Of a DNA stretch of 64,000 bases, positions 2,062-40,842 are shown piece by piece. The notes beneath the pieces are model-generated. The model was not told the DNA's origin. It did not search any database and saw only the letters and a list, made by a program, of their open reading frames with translations. The position numbers and the translations under genes were made by a program. The stretch is taken from contig JAMAHW010000065.1 in the NCBI GenBank assembly GCA_023627715.1, positions 124,001 to 188,000 on the forward strand, in the 5' to 3' direction. Origin of the DNA: Periconia sp. R9002. Taxonomy: Eukaryota > Ascomycota > Dothideomycetes > Pleosporales > Periconiaceae. Each line of letters begins with the position of its first letter. The first letter of the stretch is position 1.

Positions 2062-3237
2062 TTTTTGAATTCTCCCAAAAGTTGGTGTTTGTGTGTATCC
2101 CCTTGTTTTCGGTCTTTCCAGGGTGCGGCGGCGGCGATCTGGCTTCCTCGATTGTATTAACAGTTTCATCTTTGTCTACATGTTGCTATTTTATGGTTAT
2201 ATTCAGAATAAGTCTCTGCCCGCACGCATTCTGCGGTGGTAGCAGCTTGGCATTTAGAGCACAACAATACGATGTCGCAGTGTCCTGAGGGTGGGACAGA
2301 CAACTTTGGCGTTACCGCCATCATCTTGCCAACGTCCAATTCCCGGTCCCTTGACAATGCGAGAAAACTACCTGCTATGATGTGACACGAATCACATCTG
2401 TGTTACGAACATCATCATCATCATCCAGTAGTGAATTCACGACATTCGTTAAATCTCCCCTAACTCACCTCCAACCCTCATGCCGAAACCATACAAAAAA
2501 CCCTCCCTTCCTTTCCTTCATCTCCATTTGATCAACGACGACAGGGGGCAAGAATAAACCACCCAGTACAAGCAAATCATAAATTCTAAAAAAAAAAAAA
2601 AATAACGGTAAAGCATTCCTATTTATTACCCACTTTCTCAAATTCCTCAACTACCTACCTACCTACCTACCTAGCTTAATTACATAAGAGGCCGTGTACC
2701 GTACCGTTTACGTACTGTTACGTATAATGAAAACCCCTAACCAAAATCGTAAGAGATGAGAGATGAGAGAGTTAACTCGGGGAGAGAGGAAGAATGGAGG
2801 AGAGATGTGACGTACTTGCCGTTACAGTCCAATCAAAAAAGGAAAACAAGGAAAAAGGAAGACAAAGGGAAGGGGTAAGGGGAAAGTGGGGAAAGGGAAA
2901 GAAAGATGCCCGTCCGGTTGAGAACCGAGCGTGGGTTGGTGGGTAGGTGTGTGCGAGGTAGGGTTGCCCGCATTGCTACCACACACACAGTGAGAGAGAG
3001 GGGGGAAGGGGGGGGGGGGGGAGAACCGGGTTAATTTGGTTTTCATCCCCGGAATTTCTCCCTCGCTCTCTCGCTCCTAGGAAATAGGGGAAAGGCAAAG
3101 ACAAAAACAATCTGTGGGAGTTTCGAGAGACAACAAACCAACAAGCAAGCAACAACACCAGTGAAGCAGAGAACCGAGACGGGACTCAGTGCCACACACA
3201 CACACAAAAACAACAACACCCCTCACTTAGATCCCAC
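2062..3237. other. Intergenic, simple-sequence rich
   Basis: The stretch lies between the stop codons of two convergent genes. It holds low-complexity DNA: a poly-A run near 2588-2601, (CTAC)n near 2648-2673, purine-rich blocks 2750-2900 and a poly-G run near 3008-3021. I see no coding region. Confidence 0.7.
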
Positions 3238-6200
3238 TTAAGTATACGACCTCATAGCATCCTGATACCCCGTCCCGCCCCGCATATCCTCCTCAAACGT
3301 CGTGTGCGCGAGCATGACGCGGCGGACGTACGCCATGCTGAAGACGCCCTTTTCGGCCACGGCGATGGCCTGCGAGGTTTTGACGGCGTTTTTGATCTAC
3401 CGTTGTGTTAGACAAAAAGAGAGTCGTGGAAAGGGGGAAGGAGGAAAAGGGGGAGAGAAGGGAAAAGGGATAGGAGGGAGATCTTACCTGTCGACCATTC
3501 ATGACCTTCTTACTCAGCTCGTCGTAGTCTTCGTCGGTGAAGGGTTTGCATTGGTTCGTAGGGGGTTGTTCATCCTTGTTTGTGGTCTTGTCGACGTTTT
3601 TACTCTTGTCCTTGTCGGCGGTACTCGCCAGCGCAGACATGGCAAGTACATTCCCCACATGATGCCTCCAAATCTTCCGCCTCGCCTTCATGGTCAAATC
3701 CTCATACCTAATCCCCATATGAATCCGACTCTGAAACGCCTCATCGAACGTCGCAACACGATTCGTCGTCAGGAACAAAATCCCCTGGTAGTACTCGGTC
3801 AGACGCAGGAAGACGCTAACGAGGGCGTTGCGGTGTATGTCGTGGGGCTGGCGGGCTTCAAGGAAGACGTCGGCTTCGTCGAGGAGTAGGATGGCGCCCC
3901 ACGCGTGCGTGATCTCCATGATGCGGTTGAGGTCGCGCTCGAGCTGCGACGCGCTGGTGCCGAGTTCGCCTGACGACACGGCGTAGAGGGGGCAGCGGAG
4001 GAACTCGGCGATGGATTCGCCCGTCAAGGTTTTGCCTACGCCGGGGGGACCGTGGAGGACGACGTTGAGGCCTTTGCCTTTGCCGACGATGACGTCGTCG
4101 ATGGTGCGGGCGGCGTTGAAGCGGTGCGAGGAGACGAGGCCTTTTAGGTTTTGTTTGATTTGCGGGGGGAGAACGAGCGTGTCGAAGGCCGAGGCGTTCC
4201 ATTCGATTTCCTTGAGCCCCGCGAGGGAGAATTCGAGCCAGGCTTTTTCGGAGAAGGAGAAGCCTAGGACCACGGGGGAGGAGATGAGGAGTTCTTCTTC
4301 GGTGAAGACGTGCTTGCTGCAGTCGAATTCCGGGTCTTCGGTGTCGGCGACGACGTCGAGTTTTTCGGCGGTCATGTCGGGCCCGGATTCAGAGGCTTCG
4401 AGGCGGATGAGGAAGCGCTTGCCTTCGTTGTTTTTCCACATGACGACGCGGCCGCGCGGTTTCTCCTTTTTCTCGCTGTCGGAGTCGTTGTCTGAGTCGG
4501 AGTTGCACTCGCAGTCGGAACAGCCTTCTTCGGAGCCTTCCTCGTCGTCTTCGTCCTCGTGGCTGAGGTCGTCGGCTTTGATGTACGAGAGGGGGTAGTT
4601 GGCGTTGAGGCGACGGAAGAGTGCCGGGTCGACCATGACGCGACCGTTGATGTTGAACTTGCGGACGGTGCGTCGGTACTTCATGTATGCGAGTCCCGTT
4701 TGCATCCTGTAGTTCATGCCTTGTAGGGCGACAAACTTCTTGCCGCGTTCAACGAGCTGCTCGCGGAGCGCGTCTGGATTCTTGTGGAAGGACAAGGGGT
4801 AGGCGTCGACGTTGGCGATCCGACGGGGGCCCTTGAACGAGTGGATCTGGATGAAAATGTCTCCCAGCCCAAACACTTTGCCGTCGTACTCCAGATAGCG
4901 ACCCTCGATGTTCCACTTCTTGTTGCCGAACCAGTCCTCTTCCTCGTAGCAGTAGTCGACCTTGAAACACCTCGGATCATCCTTGTTCCCGTACGTCGGC
5001 GTGTAGATGATCGTGTTTGGTTTGAAGAGGGCCCACACGAGGTTGTAAGTAATGGTCCCGGCTTTGAGCATAGGCTTGAGTGTTTTGCGCGTGTCCTTGT
5101 AGTCTTCGTCTATGTAGCGGAGAAGAAGTTTGCACTGGGCTATCTGGTCGGTGATTTGTTTCTTATCCTTGCGCTTTTTCGCAGAGCGGAGTTCCGACTT
5201 GAGCGTCTTTTTTGTGTGCTTCTTGATCTCCTCGTAGAAATGGTATAGCATGTTGGGTTGGATCTATGCACGCACACATTAGTCTCCTACGAGCAGTTTA
5301 AGGGAGGGGGGTTCTTGGAACTTACACTAGGCTTGTCCTCAACTAAACTGATGCTCTTACAATCCTTGAAGATCACCTGTAAGGCATTGCGCAAGAGCTT
5401 ACTCTTAATGTCGACTTGCGTTTCAAGGTATTTGTTGTCCCAGCCAAACTTTCGCCGCACCGTGAAAACGCTGTCAAACTCATCTTTCTGCTCCTCTGCA
5501 CTCTCCATGTACTTGTAGTCGCGGATTTTCGAGTCCCACACCTGGTCCACACGCTTGAAGTCAACGCCGTTCTTTTTGCGTTTTTTGCTTGGCGCATTGG
5601 CGGCTGTTGTGGTCGTACTCGCAGTAGCGGTGTCTGCTGGCGGTTGAAGCGCAGCTGCAGCTGCAGCTGTGGCGGCGAGTTGTTTTCGAAGCAGCTCTTG
5701 CTTCTTAAGATTCAAATCAGCTGTGCTAACTGCTCGTGTCGAAGAATCGGGTGTATCTTCCTGCTCGGTTTCGGATGAGGAGTCATCCTTGGCGGCTTTT
5801 GATTTCTTGCTCTTCTTCTTGCTTTGCCTACGCTTCGGCTTCTCATCCTCTGATGAGTCGCTCTCTGATGACGAAGATTCACTTGATGAAGAGCTGGAGT
5901 CGTCGCTTGAGCTCTCGTGCTTCTTGGATTAGAAAGGATATCAGTGTGTTGAACGCAGCACTGGGTTAAGCACATGAACTCACCTTCTTCTGTTTAGCTT
6001 TCCTTGCCTTCGCCTTCGCCTTTTTCTTGCGCTTGACTTTTTCCTCTTCGGAGGAGTCTTGTTCAGACTCTGAGTCGCTGTCTGAGGAGTCTGACTCATC
6101 GCTAGATTCGACCTTTTTGCTCTTCTTGGCCTTCTTCTTTTTTGCCTTTTGTTTGGCGGCTTTCTTTTTCAAAGCAGCTTTCTTCGCCTGCTTCTTTTTC

Positions 6201-35989: not shown

Positions 35990-36557
35990 ATGCACATCAC
36001 AACCCTCATCTTCGCCACGGCGATCAGCTCCGTCCTCGCCTCTCCACACCCCGCCGCCGTAGCTATCGCACAGTCCACGCCGTCAGATATCCCTTCGTCG
36101 AACAACGCGACGCAGCCTCGCGCGGGCGGACATAGGAATAGGCATAGAGAGTATCTGCCTGTGTTTAGGACGCCGTGCGAATGTGTGAAACCGATGATGC
36201 CGGTGGGGTTGTTGAATGATAAGGAGGTGAGTTGTCGAATCTCTTCGTCGCTTTTGTTTTGTTGTGTTTTTGTGTGTGGGGGAGGTGGTTTGGAGAAAGA
36301 GAAGTAGTTGGCGCTGGCTGGTGGTTGAAGCGAGAAAGGGGACTACTATTGGTGAAGAAATCGGTTTTACTGATTCGTTTTTTCCTTGGTTTGTGCAACA
36401 GCAATGCAATTTCAGGTACTACCAAGACGTGTCTTGCTTCAAGGTCAATCCTGGATGTCCGGAGCCGGTGTTCAAGGTAAGTCAGATAATGGAGGGGTTT
36501 TTTTGGTTTTTGTGTCGGGGATGAGAGGACGTTGCTGATTGTTATGTGTAGTGCTGA
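35990..36557 (+). CDS. Small secreted six-cysteine protein (effector-like)
   Basis: Three exons (introns 36227-36401 and 36477-36551) give 105 residues; the last exon holds only Cys and the stop. The signal peptide is MHITTLIFATAISSVLAS. A short Ser/Asn pro-region and a basic RAGGHRNRHRE segment precede a compact C-terminal domain with six cysteines (CEC, QCNF, SCFK, GCPE and a final Cys). A terminal cysteine supplied by a micro-exon is unusual, but it gives an even number for three disulphides. No family is recognised; the layout suits an apoplastic effector or an antimicrobial peptide. It lies 1.1 kb from the UstYa gene on the opposite strand. Confidence 0.68.
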
Positions 36558-37689: not shown

Positions 37690-38626
37690 TCATCTGCTGG
37701 CAGAAGAAATCGCATTGTCCTTCGCCCATTGCTTGATGGTGTCGAAATTGCGGCAAACGCGGTTCGATTCGTAGTCGGCGGCGATGCCCTGACCTACTTG
37801 GCTGTACGTGTATACACTGACATCAGAAAGGCACATCAGATCCTCCCTGAGCATCTCAATGCATTGATCTACATTCATTAATACTCGATATCCTCTTTAG
37901 CGTATCAAACAAGTAGAGACTCACCAAGATTCTCTCTCACGGTAACCGCCTCGTTATGTGGAAGCCTCGTAGCGTAGTCCGAATGGCTTGCCATGCGAAG
38001 CAAGTTGAGACATTTCAGTTGGTGGAAAACTCGCAATCCAGCTCGGTAGCCCATTTCGCCGGTCTGAGGATCAGAGACTTTGACCGAGGTCGTGGGTTTG
38101 CCGAGTTTTGGGAAATCCTCGGAGGAGATGATATGGTCGGGTACTAATATCATGAGTTAGTGTATGCATGGATAGGTAATGTTTATTGATATGCTTACGG
38201 GAACTGATTTCGTTCCAGGCATTGTCGACTGCGGCGTCTACACCTACGTATTTTGAAGAGTTGGTAGGGTGTGCGAGTTTGAACTGGGATCGCTGGTATT
38301 CTGCTATGCCGGCAACGGGAGCTGTAGGGTGGTAAGTTTGGTTTCTCGCATTGAAGGGATTTGTTCAAAAGCGCATCGTTTGATCACTTACAAAATAGAC
38401 CGATTTCATCCATCAATCCAGCAGTGGTGTAACTTGCTTTTGAATGTTGCATGTATATGGCGCAAACCAGCGTCAAAGCAGACATTATGAAAACAAAAAG
38501 GTTGGCTAGGAGAAGGTATTTGATGCTGTTTCTTCTCACCGACTCCTTCACGGAGCCGTTGAGGAAGGATGTGTTCTCGTCGCCTTGGGAGCTAGCATCA
38601 TCATAATCATGATTTTGCTTTTCCAT
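37690..38626 (-). CDS. UstYa/DUF3328-family oxidase-like protein
   Basis: Four exons (introns 38322-38391, 38144-38198 and 37869-37924) give 251 residues. A cytosolic N-terminus is followed by one transmembrane segment (YLLLANLFVFIMSALTLVCA, about 37-59) and a lumenal domain: SPVAGIAEYQ, KYVGVDAAVDNAWNEI, MGYRAGLRVFHQLKCLNLLR and NLDQCIEMLREDLMC. This is the UstYa layout (type II membrane protein with two HxxHC motifs). UstYa proteins modify ribosomally made peptides, mostly by oxidative cyclisation, in fungal RiPP pathways. Both motifs are altered here: HQLKC for HxxHC, and NLDQC for the second. Either metal binding differs or activity is changed. The ATG at 38624-38626 is the first in-frame start. 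It is divergent from a Kex2-repeat precursor. Confidence 0.88.
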
Positions 38627-39686
38627 TGTGATCAACTGTTATTGATGTTCTATATTTGACGAGCGCTCCTAGGTATTAATAAGTCGTATAATAGATGGCC
38701 AAAAATCGATCAAGATATGTAACAATGAGACAAATATGCGGCCAGCGCTGAAGAAAGTGAGGGAAGGAGGACAGGAGACTCGAGAGCGCACAACATACAT
38801 GTACCATGCAATCCTCAATGGGTATGTAGCATAACAAGCTTTTACCAAGATTTTAAGCGACGGAGACCAATGCAATTGTGAGAATGGCAGGCGTTACATG
38901 GGAAAATCCCAGCCATACGAAAACAGGCGCTTCTACCTGTTTCGGCTGTTTTGATTCTTCACCATCGTTTCACCTTGGCGATCTAGCGGAGAGCAGCTCC
39001 GCGCCGGGGTCAGAAACCAGTCTGATACTTTGGTGGCGCATTCACCACCCGTCTACTCCCGCTTCCAGAAGAAGGAGGGTCTTGTTCAGGTGTGGCGGCA
39101 TTTTTCCACGCTGCAACCAGGCCAATCATCGCTCATGAGGCCCCGTCAAGCATCGTTTCAGCCTGCCAACTCTCTCCAAGGCGCCGCGATTTCTGGGCAT
39201 TTCAAACACCAACGACACCGCCATACAGATTCCAAGGTGGTCTTTGGGTGAACGCTATGCCGCATCAGTCGCTTTGCCGTGATTCCCTCCATCGTGATAT
39301 CCTACCACACCTCGCTGAGACAGTGTCGTACACTCACCCGAAGCAGCATATGTCAGGAGTGCCAAACTGAACGATGCCGTATGCCATCTATGTCTTCAGG
39401 CTCCGCAGTTTCCTTGTCACTGCGGGCCCAAGATCCTAGGAGATTCGATGCCAGCCACTCAAAGGCGAGAGCCTGTAAAAAGCAGTTCCAGAAGAGAGTT
39501 TGGATATAAAGCGCTCGCATGTACGATCACCTTATATCCTCAGACAACTATCGTTCTCAAACTTGCTCAGTCGTCCTTCCTTCTCTTTCCTTCTCAATTC
39601 CTTCTATTCGTTAGTGGCCGGACCACCTTTTCAATCGTTGAACTTTGTGATCCGTCAGCGTTTCATTTACACCCTAGCCATTAACA
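38627..39686. promoter_or_regulatory. Divergent promoter between UstYa and repeat-precursor genes
   Basis: About 1.06 kb between divergent start codons. On the precursor side there is a TATAAA box at 39505-39510 (about 180 bp before the ATG) and a CT-rich tract near 39571-39606, a pattern of strongly expressed fungal genes. No regulator site is identified with confidence. The arrangement would allow coordinated expression. Confidence 0.55.
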
Positions 39687-40842
39687 ATGAAGTTCTCCGG
39701 CCTTGCCCTAATCGCACTCGGTGCTTCCACCGCAGCTGCTTATGTGGTCACTGAGAACACTCCTAATGCCCTTGGAGCCCGAGGTGTTGGATCTGGCCCG
39801 GTACTAGCCAGCACTCTCCAAGCTCGTCACCGTTAGTGCCATCCTGCCTTAAAGTGTTAACGTCATTTCTAACTTGTAAACAGACAAGGGTCGCAAGAAT
39901 AACCGCCGTGAAGTCGAAGCTGCTGTTGAGGCTCGCGATCCTCACCGTAAGTGCTCAACATCTTTCCCCAATTCTTCAGTGATTAACATCATCATAGACA
40001 AGGGCCGCAAGAACAACCGACGCGAAGTCGAGGTTGAAGCCCGTGATCCTCACCACAAAGGTCGCAAGAACAACCGTCGCGAGGAGGAGGACGACTCCGA
40101 GCACGACATTGAAGCTCGTGACCCTCATCACAAGGGCCGCAAAAACAACCGACGTGAAGTTGAAGTTGAAGCCCGTGATCCCCACCACAAGGGTCGCAAG
40201 AACAACCGCCGTGAGGAGGAAGAGGACGACGACTCTGAGCACGACCTTGAGGCTCGCGATCCCCATCACAAAGGACGCAAGAACAACCGCCGCGAGGAGG
40301 AGGATGACTCTGAGCACGACCTCGAAGCCCGTGACCCTCACCACAAAGGACGCAAGAATAACCGACGTGAGGTTGAGGTTGAAGCTCGCGATCCCCACCA
40401 CAAGGGCCGCAAGAACAACCGTCGTGAAGAAGAGGATGATGAAACCGACCTCGAGACACGTGATCCTCACCACAAGGGACGCAAGAACAACCGCCGCGAG
40501 GAAGAGGAGCACGATGCTGACCTAGAAGCCCGTGACCCTCACCACAAGGGTCGCAAGAACAACCGCCGCGAGGAGGAGGACCATGAGGCTGACCTCGAAG
40601 CTCGCGACCCCCACCACAAAGGACGCAAGAACAACCGCCGCGAGGAGGAGGACGACTCTGAGCATGATCTCGAGGCCCGTGACCCTCACCACAAGGGACG
40701 TAAGAACAACCGTCGCAGCCCTCACCACAAGGGACGCAAGAACAACCGCCGTAGTCCTCACCACAAAGGCCGCAAGAATAACCGCCGCTCTGTCGAGGTC
40801 GAGGCTCGCGAGCCACACCACAAGGGCCGCAAGGGTAACTAA
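39687..40842 (+). CDS. Secreted precursor of Kex2-type tandem repeats (RiPP-like)
   Basis: Three exons (introns 39832-39883 and 39947-39997) give 350 residues. A signal peptide MKFSGLALIALGASTAAA and a leader of about 30 residues precede 15 tandem units. Each has an invariant basic part, HHKGRKNNRR, preceded by DP in most units, and a variable acidic spacer (EVEVEAR, or EEEDDSEHDLEAR and relatives). The RR is a canonical Kex2 site, so Golgi processing would release many near-identical 12-25-residue peptides. Units 12 and 13 have only Ser-Pro as spacer; the last ends KGRKGN. Kex2-repeat precursors next to UstYa genes encode dikaritin-type RiPPs. Unlike known cores, this one has no Tyr, Phe or Trp. 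Alternatives are a processed surface repellent/structural peptide or a His-rich antimicrobial. Confidence 0.82.
39884..40839 (+). repeat. Tandem coding repeat, about 15 units
   Basis: Units of 36-81 bp encode the basic segment HHKGRKNNRR plus a spacer. The basic part is nearly invariant at protein level while synonymous codon changes are scattered (GGC/GGT/GGA, CGC/CGT), pointing to selection on the peptide. Spacers change in length and sequence but stay acidic. Two introns fall at the same codon (His, CAC split C|AC) in the first two unit boundaries. Confidence 0.9.

Follow-up and report, generated by a model that had tools for sequence, protein, structure and literature searches.

Does a UstYa-type oxidase act on a fungal repeat peptide that offers it no tyrosine to crosslink? 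The question is raised by two divergent genes within the window analysed here, a stretch of 64,000 nucleotides from Periconia sp. R9002 (GCA_023627715.1, contig JAMAHW010000065.1; C65:124001-188000 in our numbering of an assembly of 42.9 Mb in 267 contigs). One of them, here named KEP-A, codes for a precursor with 15 units containing the motif HHKG, and the other, 1060 bp away, for a homologue of UstYa (DUF3328). A first-pass annotation of this DNA had described the pair as a Kex2-type repeat precursor diverging from a UstYa gene, a description borne out by the gene models and by the PF11807 match of the second protein (158.5 bits), and had proposed that the oxidase modifies the core at His or at another residue. 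The results presented below point elsewhere: KEP-A is probably a Kex2/Ste13/Kex1-processed repeat protein releasing linear peptides of the HHKGRKNN type, and the neighbouring UstYa a pseudo-oxidase which does not oxidise them. Statements credited to published papers refer throughout to excerpts of those papers.

KEP-A can be classed as a KEX2-processed repeat protein (KEP) from its signal peptide, assigned by eye from the translation, its 15 units and the Kex2-type sites between them. The typical unit reads (acidic spacer)-[L/I/V]-E-[A/T]-R / D-P / HHKGRKNN / RR. The RR directly follows the core in 14 of the 15 units, all of which carry HHKGRKNNRR, while the final unit is HHKGRKGN; upstream of the cores, [L/I/V]-x-[A/T]-R is found in 13 units and RR in two. 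An X-Pro dipeptide precedes every core except that of unit 1 (14/15), which places the protein with the Ste13-signature, pheromone-like KEPs. The core had been given as DPHHKGRKNN in the first-pass annotation, of which HHKGRKNN stands, but the X-Pro dipeptide, which together with [L/I/V]-x-[A/T]-R precedes the core, had been wrongly folded into it. The claim that the core lacks Tyr, Trp and Phe is confirmed: the only Phe (residue 3) and the only Tyr (residue 19) of KEP-A both lie ahead of the repeats, and His is the sole aromatic residue of the units. Over the whole protein, the basic cores are nearly offset by the acidic spacers (88 Lys+Arg vs 83 Asp+Glu, with 36 His). The two introns interrupt units 1 and 2 at the same point, the second His codon, and the later units are intron-free; an intron seems to have been copied along with a unit.

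The residues between each HHK and the nearest upstream Arg were read out in KEP-A (15 units), in its paralogue KEP-B (10 units) and in a relative from Mytilinidion resinicola (P0001, 10 units). In all 35 units the gap is (X-Pro)n, with n = 0, 1 or 2, and odd gaps never occur. The variants over the three precursors are none, DP, SP, EP, AP, DPSP and EPAP; as the units are copies of one another, the independent evidence for the register consists of these seven variants rather than of 35 events. In unit 1 of KEP-A and units 1-2 of KEP-B, where n = 0, HHKG immediately follows LxxR, so that the predicted N-terminus is still HHKG. Such a register is best read as the requirement that a Ste13-like dipeptidyl aminopeptidase would impose in order to give all copies one N-terminus. 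At 23 of the 25 upstream Arg sites of KEP-A and KEP-B, P4 is Leu, Ile or Val and P1 is Arg, the remaining two being RR; an expanded Kex2 motif, LxxR with a tolerant P2, has been reported (PMC8528282). Profile matches in the genome include one P_proprotein (Kex2-type) and two full-length DPPIV_N, plus one partial.

The cores are also conserved in a manner which their DNA is not. The 14 exact cores of KEP-A are encoded by 14 different DNA strings, with synonymous divergence (pS) of 0.54 and nonsynonymous divergence (pN) of 0, and the seven exact cores of KEP-B by six strings (pS 0.49, pN 0). Both calculations are limited to exact cores (14/15 units of KEP-A, 7/10 of KEP-B), so that the pN of 0 follows from the selection of units, the excluded ones being ends or early variants. 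Spacers of equal length are more variable (pN 0.02-0.10). An artefact of repeated DNA is rejected for KEP-A on account of the 14 different strings, which, with the pS and pN values, indicate that the peptide repeat is maintained by selection and is not merely a recent DNA repeat. Judged from these coding sequences, the core of KEP-A is under strong purifying selection.

This anatomy suggests an order of processing. The signal peptide would be removed first, after which Kex2 would cleave behind [L/I/V]x[A/T]R (or RR) upstream and behind RR downstream of each core. Kex1 would then trim off the C-terminal RR, and a Ste13-type dipeptidyl aminopeptidase would strip the X-Pro dipeptide (DP, SP, EP), the acidic spacers meanwhile serving to counterbalance the charge of the cores. 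The predicted product is a set of up to 15 near-identical, linear, cationic secreted peptides beginning with His-His-Lys-Gly (HHKGRKNN). Removal of X-Ala/X-Pro from a KEP product has been reported in Pichia pastoris (PMC9769878), and KEPs with a Ste13 signature are regarded as candidate peptide hormones by Le Marquer 2019 (PMC6339444), who, in the excerpts used, describe this signature (X-Pro/X-Ala) as absent from the precursors of toxic cyclic peptides and of epichloecyclins. As to the role of the HHKG peptides, our guess is self-signalling or an antimicrobial/metal-binding function.

The UstYa protein has a hydrophobic segment near its N-terminus and a full-length PF11807 match (positions 4-220 of 220, cut-off 25 bits). 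Its closest relative, with 85% identity, is a protein of Periconia macrospinosa (Pleosporales, Massarineae), in agreement with the Dothideomycetes. DUF3328 enzymes carry the motif pair HxxHC(x)nHxxHC, which forms a binuclear copper centre in CctR, where Ala mutants of the motif His and Cys are wholly inactive (PMC12435403). Two HxxHC motifs have further been taken as the mark of RiPP-related DUF3328 proteins, RiPP standing for ribosomally synthesised and post-translationally modified peptide (PMC12048977); the window UstYa, with HQLKC and NLDQC, has neither, retaining one of the four copper-ligand His and both motif Cys. A splice error as the cause was considered and rejected, HQLKC lying within exon 3, NLDQC being read across a GT-AG intron, and the P. 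macrospinosa protein agreeing. The degenerate motifs had not been noticed in the first-pass annotation, and they tell against its proposal that UstYa oxidises the core: because three of four ligand His are lost, and the ligands are essential in CctR, the protein is a probable pseudo-oxidase and its oxidation of the core unlikely. The annotation's second option, that UstYa does another job, may still hold. A sequence search of the PDB with a UstYa relative from Curvularia gave nothing beyond ABC transporter matches at E 0.8, which were taken as chance.

A tree of 31 UstYa rows (fragment rows P0032 and P0033 left out) sets this loss in context. All four ligand His are present in 22 rows and incomplete in nine, and these nine form one clade (support 96/88) in which the window UstYa pairs with P. 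macrospinosa (100/100). Within the clade, two ligand His are found in Paraphaeosphaeria (two rows), Paraconiothyrium, Bimuria and Didymosphaeria, one in Byssothecium, Massarina and the window UstYa, and none in P. macrospinosa, while both motif Cys and a full-length UstYa protein are found in all nine rows. Other Pleosporales rows have intact HQLHC/HLDHC. The Massarineae include Periconia, Byssothecium and Paraphaeosphaeria, but also Lentithecium, which has all four His; the ligands were thus lost inside the suborder and their loss is not a mark of the whole of it. In row P0008 the second motif reads NSDHC, which looks affected by the gene model. Of 56 other columns invariant in a set of 20 intact rows (tree rows P0027 and P0029 left out), the window UstYa retains 45, compared with one of the four ligands (Fisher p 0.036), and the P. 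macrospinosa protein likewise 45, compared with none (Fisher p 0.003), in tests which ignore shared ancestry. As 45/56 is the lowest count among the nine rows, constraint has been relaxed elsewhere in the window UstYa as well.

KEP-B was found by searching the genome with the Mytilinidion protein (E 0.026). It has a signal-peptide-like start, a single intron ahead of its repeats, and shares the string YVVTEN with KEP-A. The pattern PHHKGRK gives 13 matches in the genome, all at the KEP-A locus (reversed control 0), and misses KEP-B since the latter reads HHKGRGKK; the 10 matches of a further genome search for paralogues all lie within KEP-B. No third paralogue was found in the genome search, two further places, on C32 and C36, having E > 1. 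Contig C56, on which KEP-B lies, has no hit among the 61 PF11807 exon matches or the 14 UstYa-protein matches of the exon-level genome searches. This evidence is at the level of the contig, of which the 3.2-kb stretch L041 was read. The first-pass annotation had named homologues widespread without a UstYa neighbour as a finding that would speak against it, and KEP-B goes part of the way. A protein search with full-length KEP-A gave the Mytilinidion protein as its sole match among the best 7998 word-sharing candidates scored (proteins of about 192-612 aa), from which acidic low-complexity proteins may have displaced others. With a 58-residue region of KEP-A free of long acidic spacers as query, none of 96 candidates (proteins of 137-437 aa) reached E <= 10. 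By this account relatives of KEP-A are rare, or missed by gene callers, or beyond the searched length limits.

Several observations weigh against linear, unoxidised peptides beside a pseudo-oxidase. The top alternative P2 residues listed for Kex2 (PMC8528282) do not include Ala, so that cutting at xEAR may be slow, and in the Mytilinidion precursor P4 of the upstream Arg sites is Leu, Ile or Met in only half of the cases (5/10). KEP-B is net acidic (68 basic vs 85 acidic residues) and does not mirror the charge balance of KEP-A, and the absence of UstYa around it rests on exon-level searches of the genome. The UstYa reading frame is intact and its product well conserved in P. macrospinosa, which means that the protein probably has some function even now, or had one until recently. 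DUF3328 genes are common near KEPs of ascomycetes (1647/5372; PMC7329392), and by analogy the pairing may be more than chance. Finally, an enzyme encoded elsewhere, for example at one of the other UstYa loci of this genome, could act on the peptide in trans. Under the linear-peptide reading, a UstYa without a complete copper site would leave the peptide unoxidised and could be left over from an earlier partnership, act as a partner without catalysis, or be a neighbour by chance.

The last of these roles, that KEP-A arose or moved beside an unrelated and vertically inherited UstYa gene, is the best placed of the alternatives, though we regard it as rather unlikely. The UstYa tree resembles vertical descent across the Pleosporales, whereas a KEP-A relative is known from one other species only; the contig of KEP-B has no UstYa match, and with about 34 UstYa loci in the genome chance neighbours are possible. 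The expected rate of such adjacency is nevertheless near 0.6% per gene (a rough estimate from about 40 UstYa among an assumed 14,000 genes), and KEPs in general are accompanied by DUF3328 far more often (PMC7329392). Somewhat less probable is a history in which an ancestral Pleosporales pair of UstYa and a di-histidine KEP, possibly of the type G-8 of Umemura 2020, made a modified peptide until one Massarineae branch gave up the modification, lost the copper site through decay and was left with a linear peptide. This history is compatible with our reading of the present-day peptide. It would account for the intact motifs in other Pleosporales rows and the stepwise loss in the nine-row clade, and the UstYa relatives with a name include 7 of the 18 G-8 genera (PMC7329392): Colletotrichum, Paraphaeosphaeria, Bipolaris, Exserohilum, Ascochyta, Pyrenochaeta and Periconia. 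Against it, the two protein searches with KEP-A, bounded by their length limits and word rule, found a relative only in Mytilinidion and so none in P. macrospinosa, a member of a G-8 genus.

It is doubtful, in our estimation, that the long-kept DUF3328 protein without a copper site serves the peptide in another way (as scaffold, chaperone or dimer partner of an active UstYa), the HHKG peptides with their free His-His being secreted metal-binding signals and the pair derived from the dikaritin kind. A working RiPP cluster, in which UstYa would modify His, Lys, Asn or Arg of the core in spite of its altered motifs, appears improbable. The two genes are adjacent and divergent, DUF3328 genes are most frequent directly next to KEP genes and accompany the di-histidine KEP types G-3 (57/64) and G-8 (45/49) (PMC7329392), and UstYa is full-length throughout the ligand-losing clade. 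The ligands essential in CctR (PMC12435403) are however lost in three of four positions here and in all four in P. macrospinosa, a paralogous precursor is encoded on a contig that gave no UstYa match, no tyrosinase match was found on C65 among the profile matches in the genome, and the X-Pro register is of the kind said to be absent from toxic cyclic-peptide precursors (PMC6339444). Very improbable is an uncut protein acting whole, as an intrinsically disordered, charge-patterned cell-wall or metal-buffering protein: the nearly balanced charge and the 36 His of KEP-A would suit it, but the dibasic sites, [LIV]xxR and the X-Pro register would have no obvious reason absent processing. An alpha-pheromone precursor is rejected, as the core HHKGRKNN is not a pheromone motif (PYGXPXG for one Pleosporales subgroup, PMC6339444).

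Elsewhere in the genome, UstYa genes are numerous. The figure of about 34 loci is our own grouping of the 61 PF11807 exon matches, and of the 20 loci read among the 33 others, 18 have at least one exact HxxHC. Degenerate copies occur on C61 (YQLHC), C123 (none found) and C100 (one gene with DCYQC), so that a degenerate UstYa is not unique to the window within this genome. Repeat precursors with Tyr in their units were found at three of the 20 loci (L019, L022, L026), near at least one UstYa with intact motifs. At L019 a precursor exon (5046-5405, minus strand) with WYDITYIDK repeats is flanked by two UstYa genes with intact HxxHC, which makes it, by its sequence, a good dikaritin-type candidate. 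At L022 an exon (2892-3101, minus strand) with VAYPESYKRE repeats lies near two UstYa genes bearing HxxHC motifs, and at L026 a secreted-type precursor (3489-4163, minus strand) with TNIYPGVKYPGDADEVAKR units lies amid several UstYa genes, one of which has DCYQC for HxxHC. An open reading frame (ORF) of 862 aa at a further UstYa locus (L037), and other reading frames of KEP-A flagged in the same scan, were set aside by eye as no KEP. On C64, UstYa exons lie about 0.5 kb from a tyrosinase match (G000, C64:200325-202541), a possible ustiloxin/phomopsin-like cluster judging by this proximity.

The other Pfam matches of the window look ordinary: CAP/Srv2, a PfkB kinase, a dsRNA-binding protein, a carboxylesterase, an arginase, a class-V aminotransferase, Eaf7, a gamma-tubulin complex protein, an MFS protein, an APH-type kinase, a PHB-esterase/S9-like protein, a GFA protein, End3 and a chitin synthase. 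The scan covered 28 of the 225 stop-to-stop ORFs of at least 90 aa, plus the two spliced proteins, and among these no P450 or methyltransferase was found. Between the CAP gene and the UstYa gene lies a short ORF (35990-36307, plus strand) whose start resembles a signal peptide and which has no Pfam match. Coordinates are collected in Table 1.

Table 1 Features of the KEP-A/UstYa locus (window positions) and of the paralogue KEP-B (contig positions).
Feature	Position	Strand	Remarks
UstYa/DUF3328 homologue, 251 aa	37690..38626	-	degenerate copper motifs HQLKC (aa 160), NLDQC (aa 191)
UstYa exons	38626-38392, 38321-38199, 38143-37925, 37868-37690	-	GT-AG introns
First copper motif, HQLKC	38010..38024	-	HxxHC expected
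Divergent intergenic region between the KEP-A and UstYa ATGs	38627..39686	.	1060 bp
KEP-A precursor gene, 350 aa, 15 HHKG units	39687..40842	+	ATG 39687, stop ends 40842
Signal-peptide segment of KEP-A, MKFSGLALIALGASTAAA	39687..39740	+	judged by eye
KEP-A unit 1, HHKGRKNNRR immediately after LQAR, without X-Pro	39828..39909	+	intron 1 interrupts second His codon
KEP-A introns	39832-39883 (52 bp); 39947-39997 (51 bp)	+	
KEP-A exon 3, rest of unit 2 through unit 15	39998..40842	+	acidic spacers, [LIV]x[AT]R or RR, X-Pro, HHKGRKNN, RR
KEP-B, 304 aa, ten units, core HHKGRGKKNN	about C56:130512-131473	-	genome search with P0001

Among known systems, the anatomy of KEP-A is closest to that of KEPs with a Ste13 signature such as the ascomycete alpha-pheromone precursors, with which it shares the signal peptide, tandem units, dibasic sites and X-Pro ahead of the core (PMC6339444, PMC9769878). 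It differs in its predicted upstream cuts, mostly at [LIV]x[AT]R and not KR, in its long acidic spacers and in its core, which is unlike the pheromone features named in the excerpts (WxW; PYGXPXG for Pleosporales; PMC6339444, PMC7329392). In Umemura 2020, DUF3328 genes lie within 15 genes of 1758/7878 KEPs, and two di-histidine types, G-3 and G-8, the latter in 18 genera including Periconia, are catalogued with them (PMC7329392). Compared by description only, these resemble KEP-A in the di-histidine with Pro in the repeat and in the DUF3328 gene nearby. A Tyr-free, HH-bearing KEP beside DUF3328 is therefore not new as a kind, and of the new class of His/Lys/Arg-rich peptides claimed in the first-pass annotation, the composition holds while "new class" is too strong. 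In titles and abstracts of the open-licence literature, no description was found of an HHKG peptide family or of an inactive, copper-ligand-free UstYa clade. The family has two paralogues in one genome, one beside UstYa and the other on a contig where none was found.

With the dikaritins (ustiloxin, phomopsin, asperipin-2a) the locus shares a Kex2-type repeat precursor beside a DUF3328 gene, but it has no Tyr or other aromatic crosslink residue in any core, HQLKC/NLDQC in place of two HxxHC motifs, an X-Pro signature and no tyrosinase match on the contig. Histatins and other His-rich cationic peptides are short and rich in His and Lys/Arg, like the HHKG peptides, a likeness for which homology is not claimed. 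Repeat precursors with a DUF3328 gene next door are commonly interpreted as RiPP clusters, and this locus argues for reading the copper motif first. With CctR and the DUF3328 copper enzymes the window UstYa shares the full-length PF11807 match, the N-terminal hydrophobic segment and both motif Cys, but one ligand His is left (none in P. macrospinosa), and together with their relatives these proteins offer a testable natural series graded over four, two, one and no ligand His.

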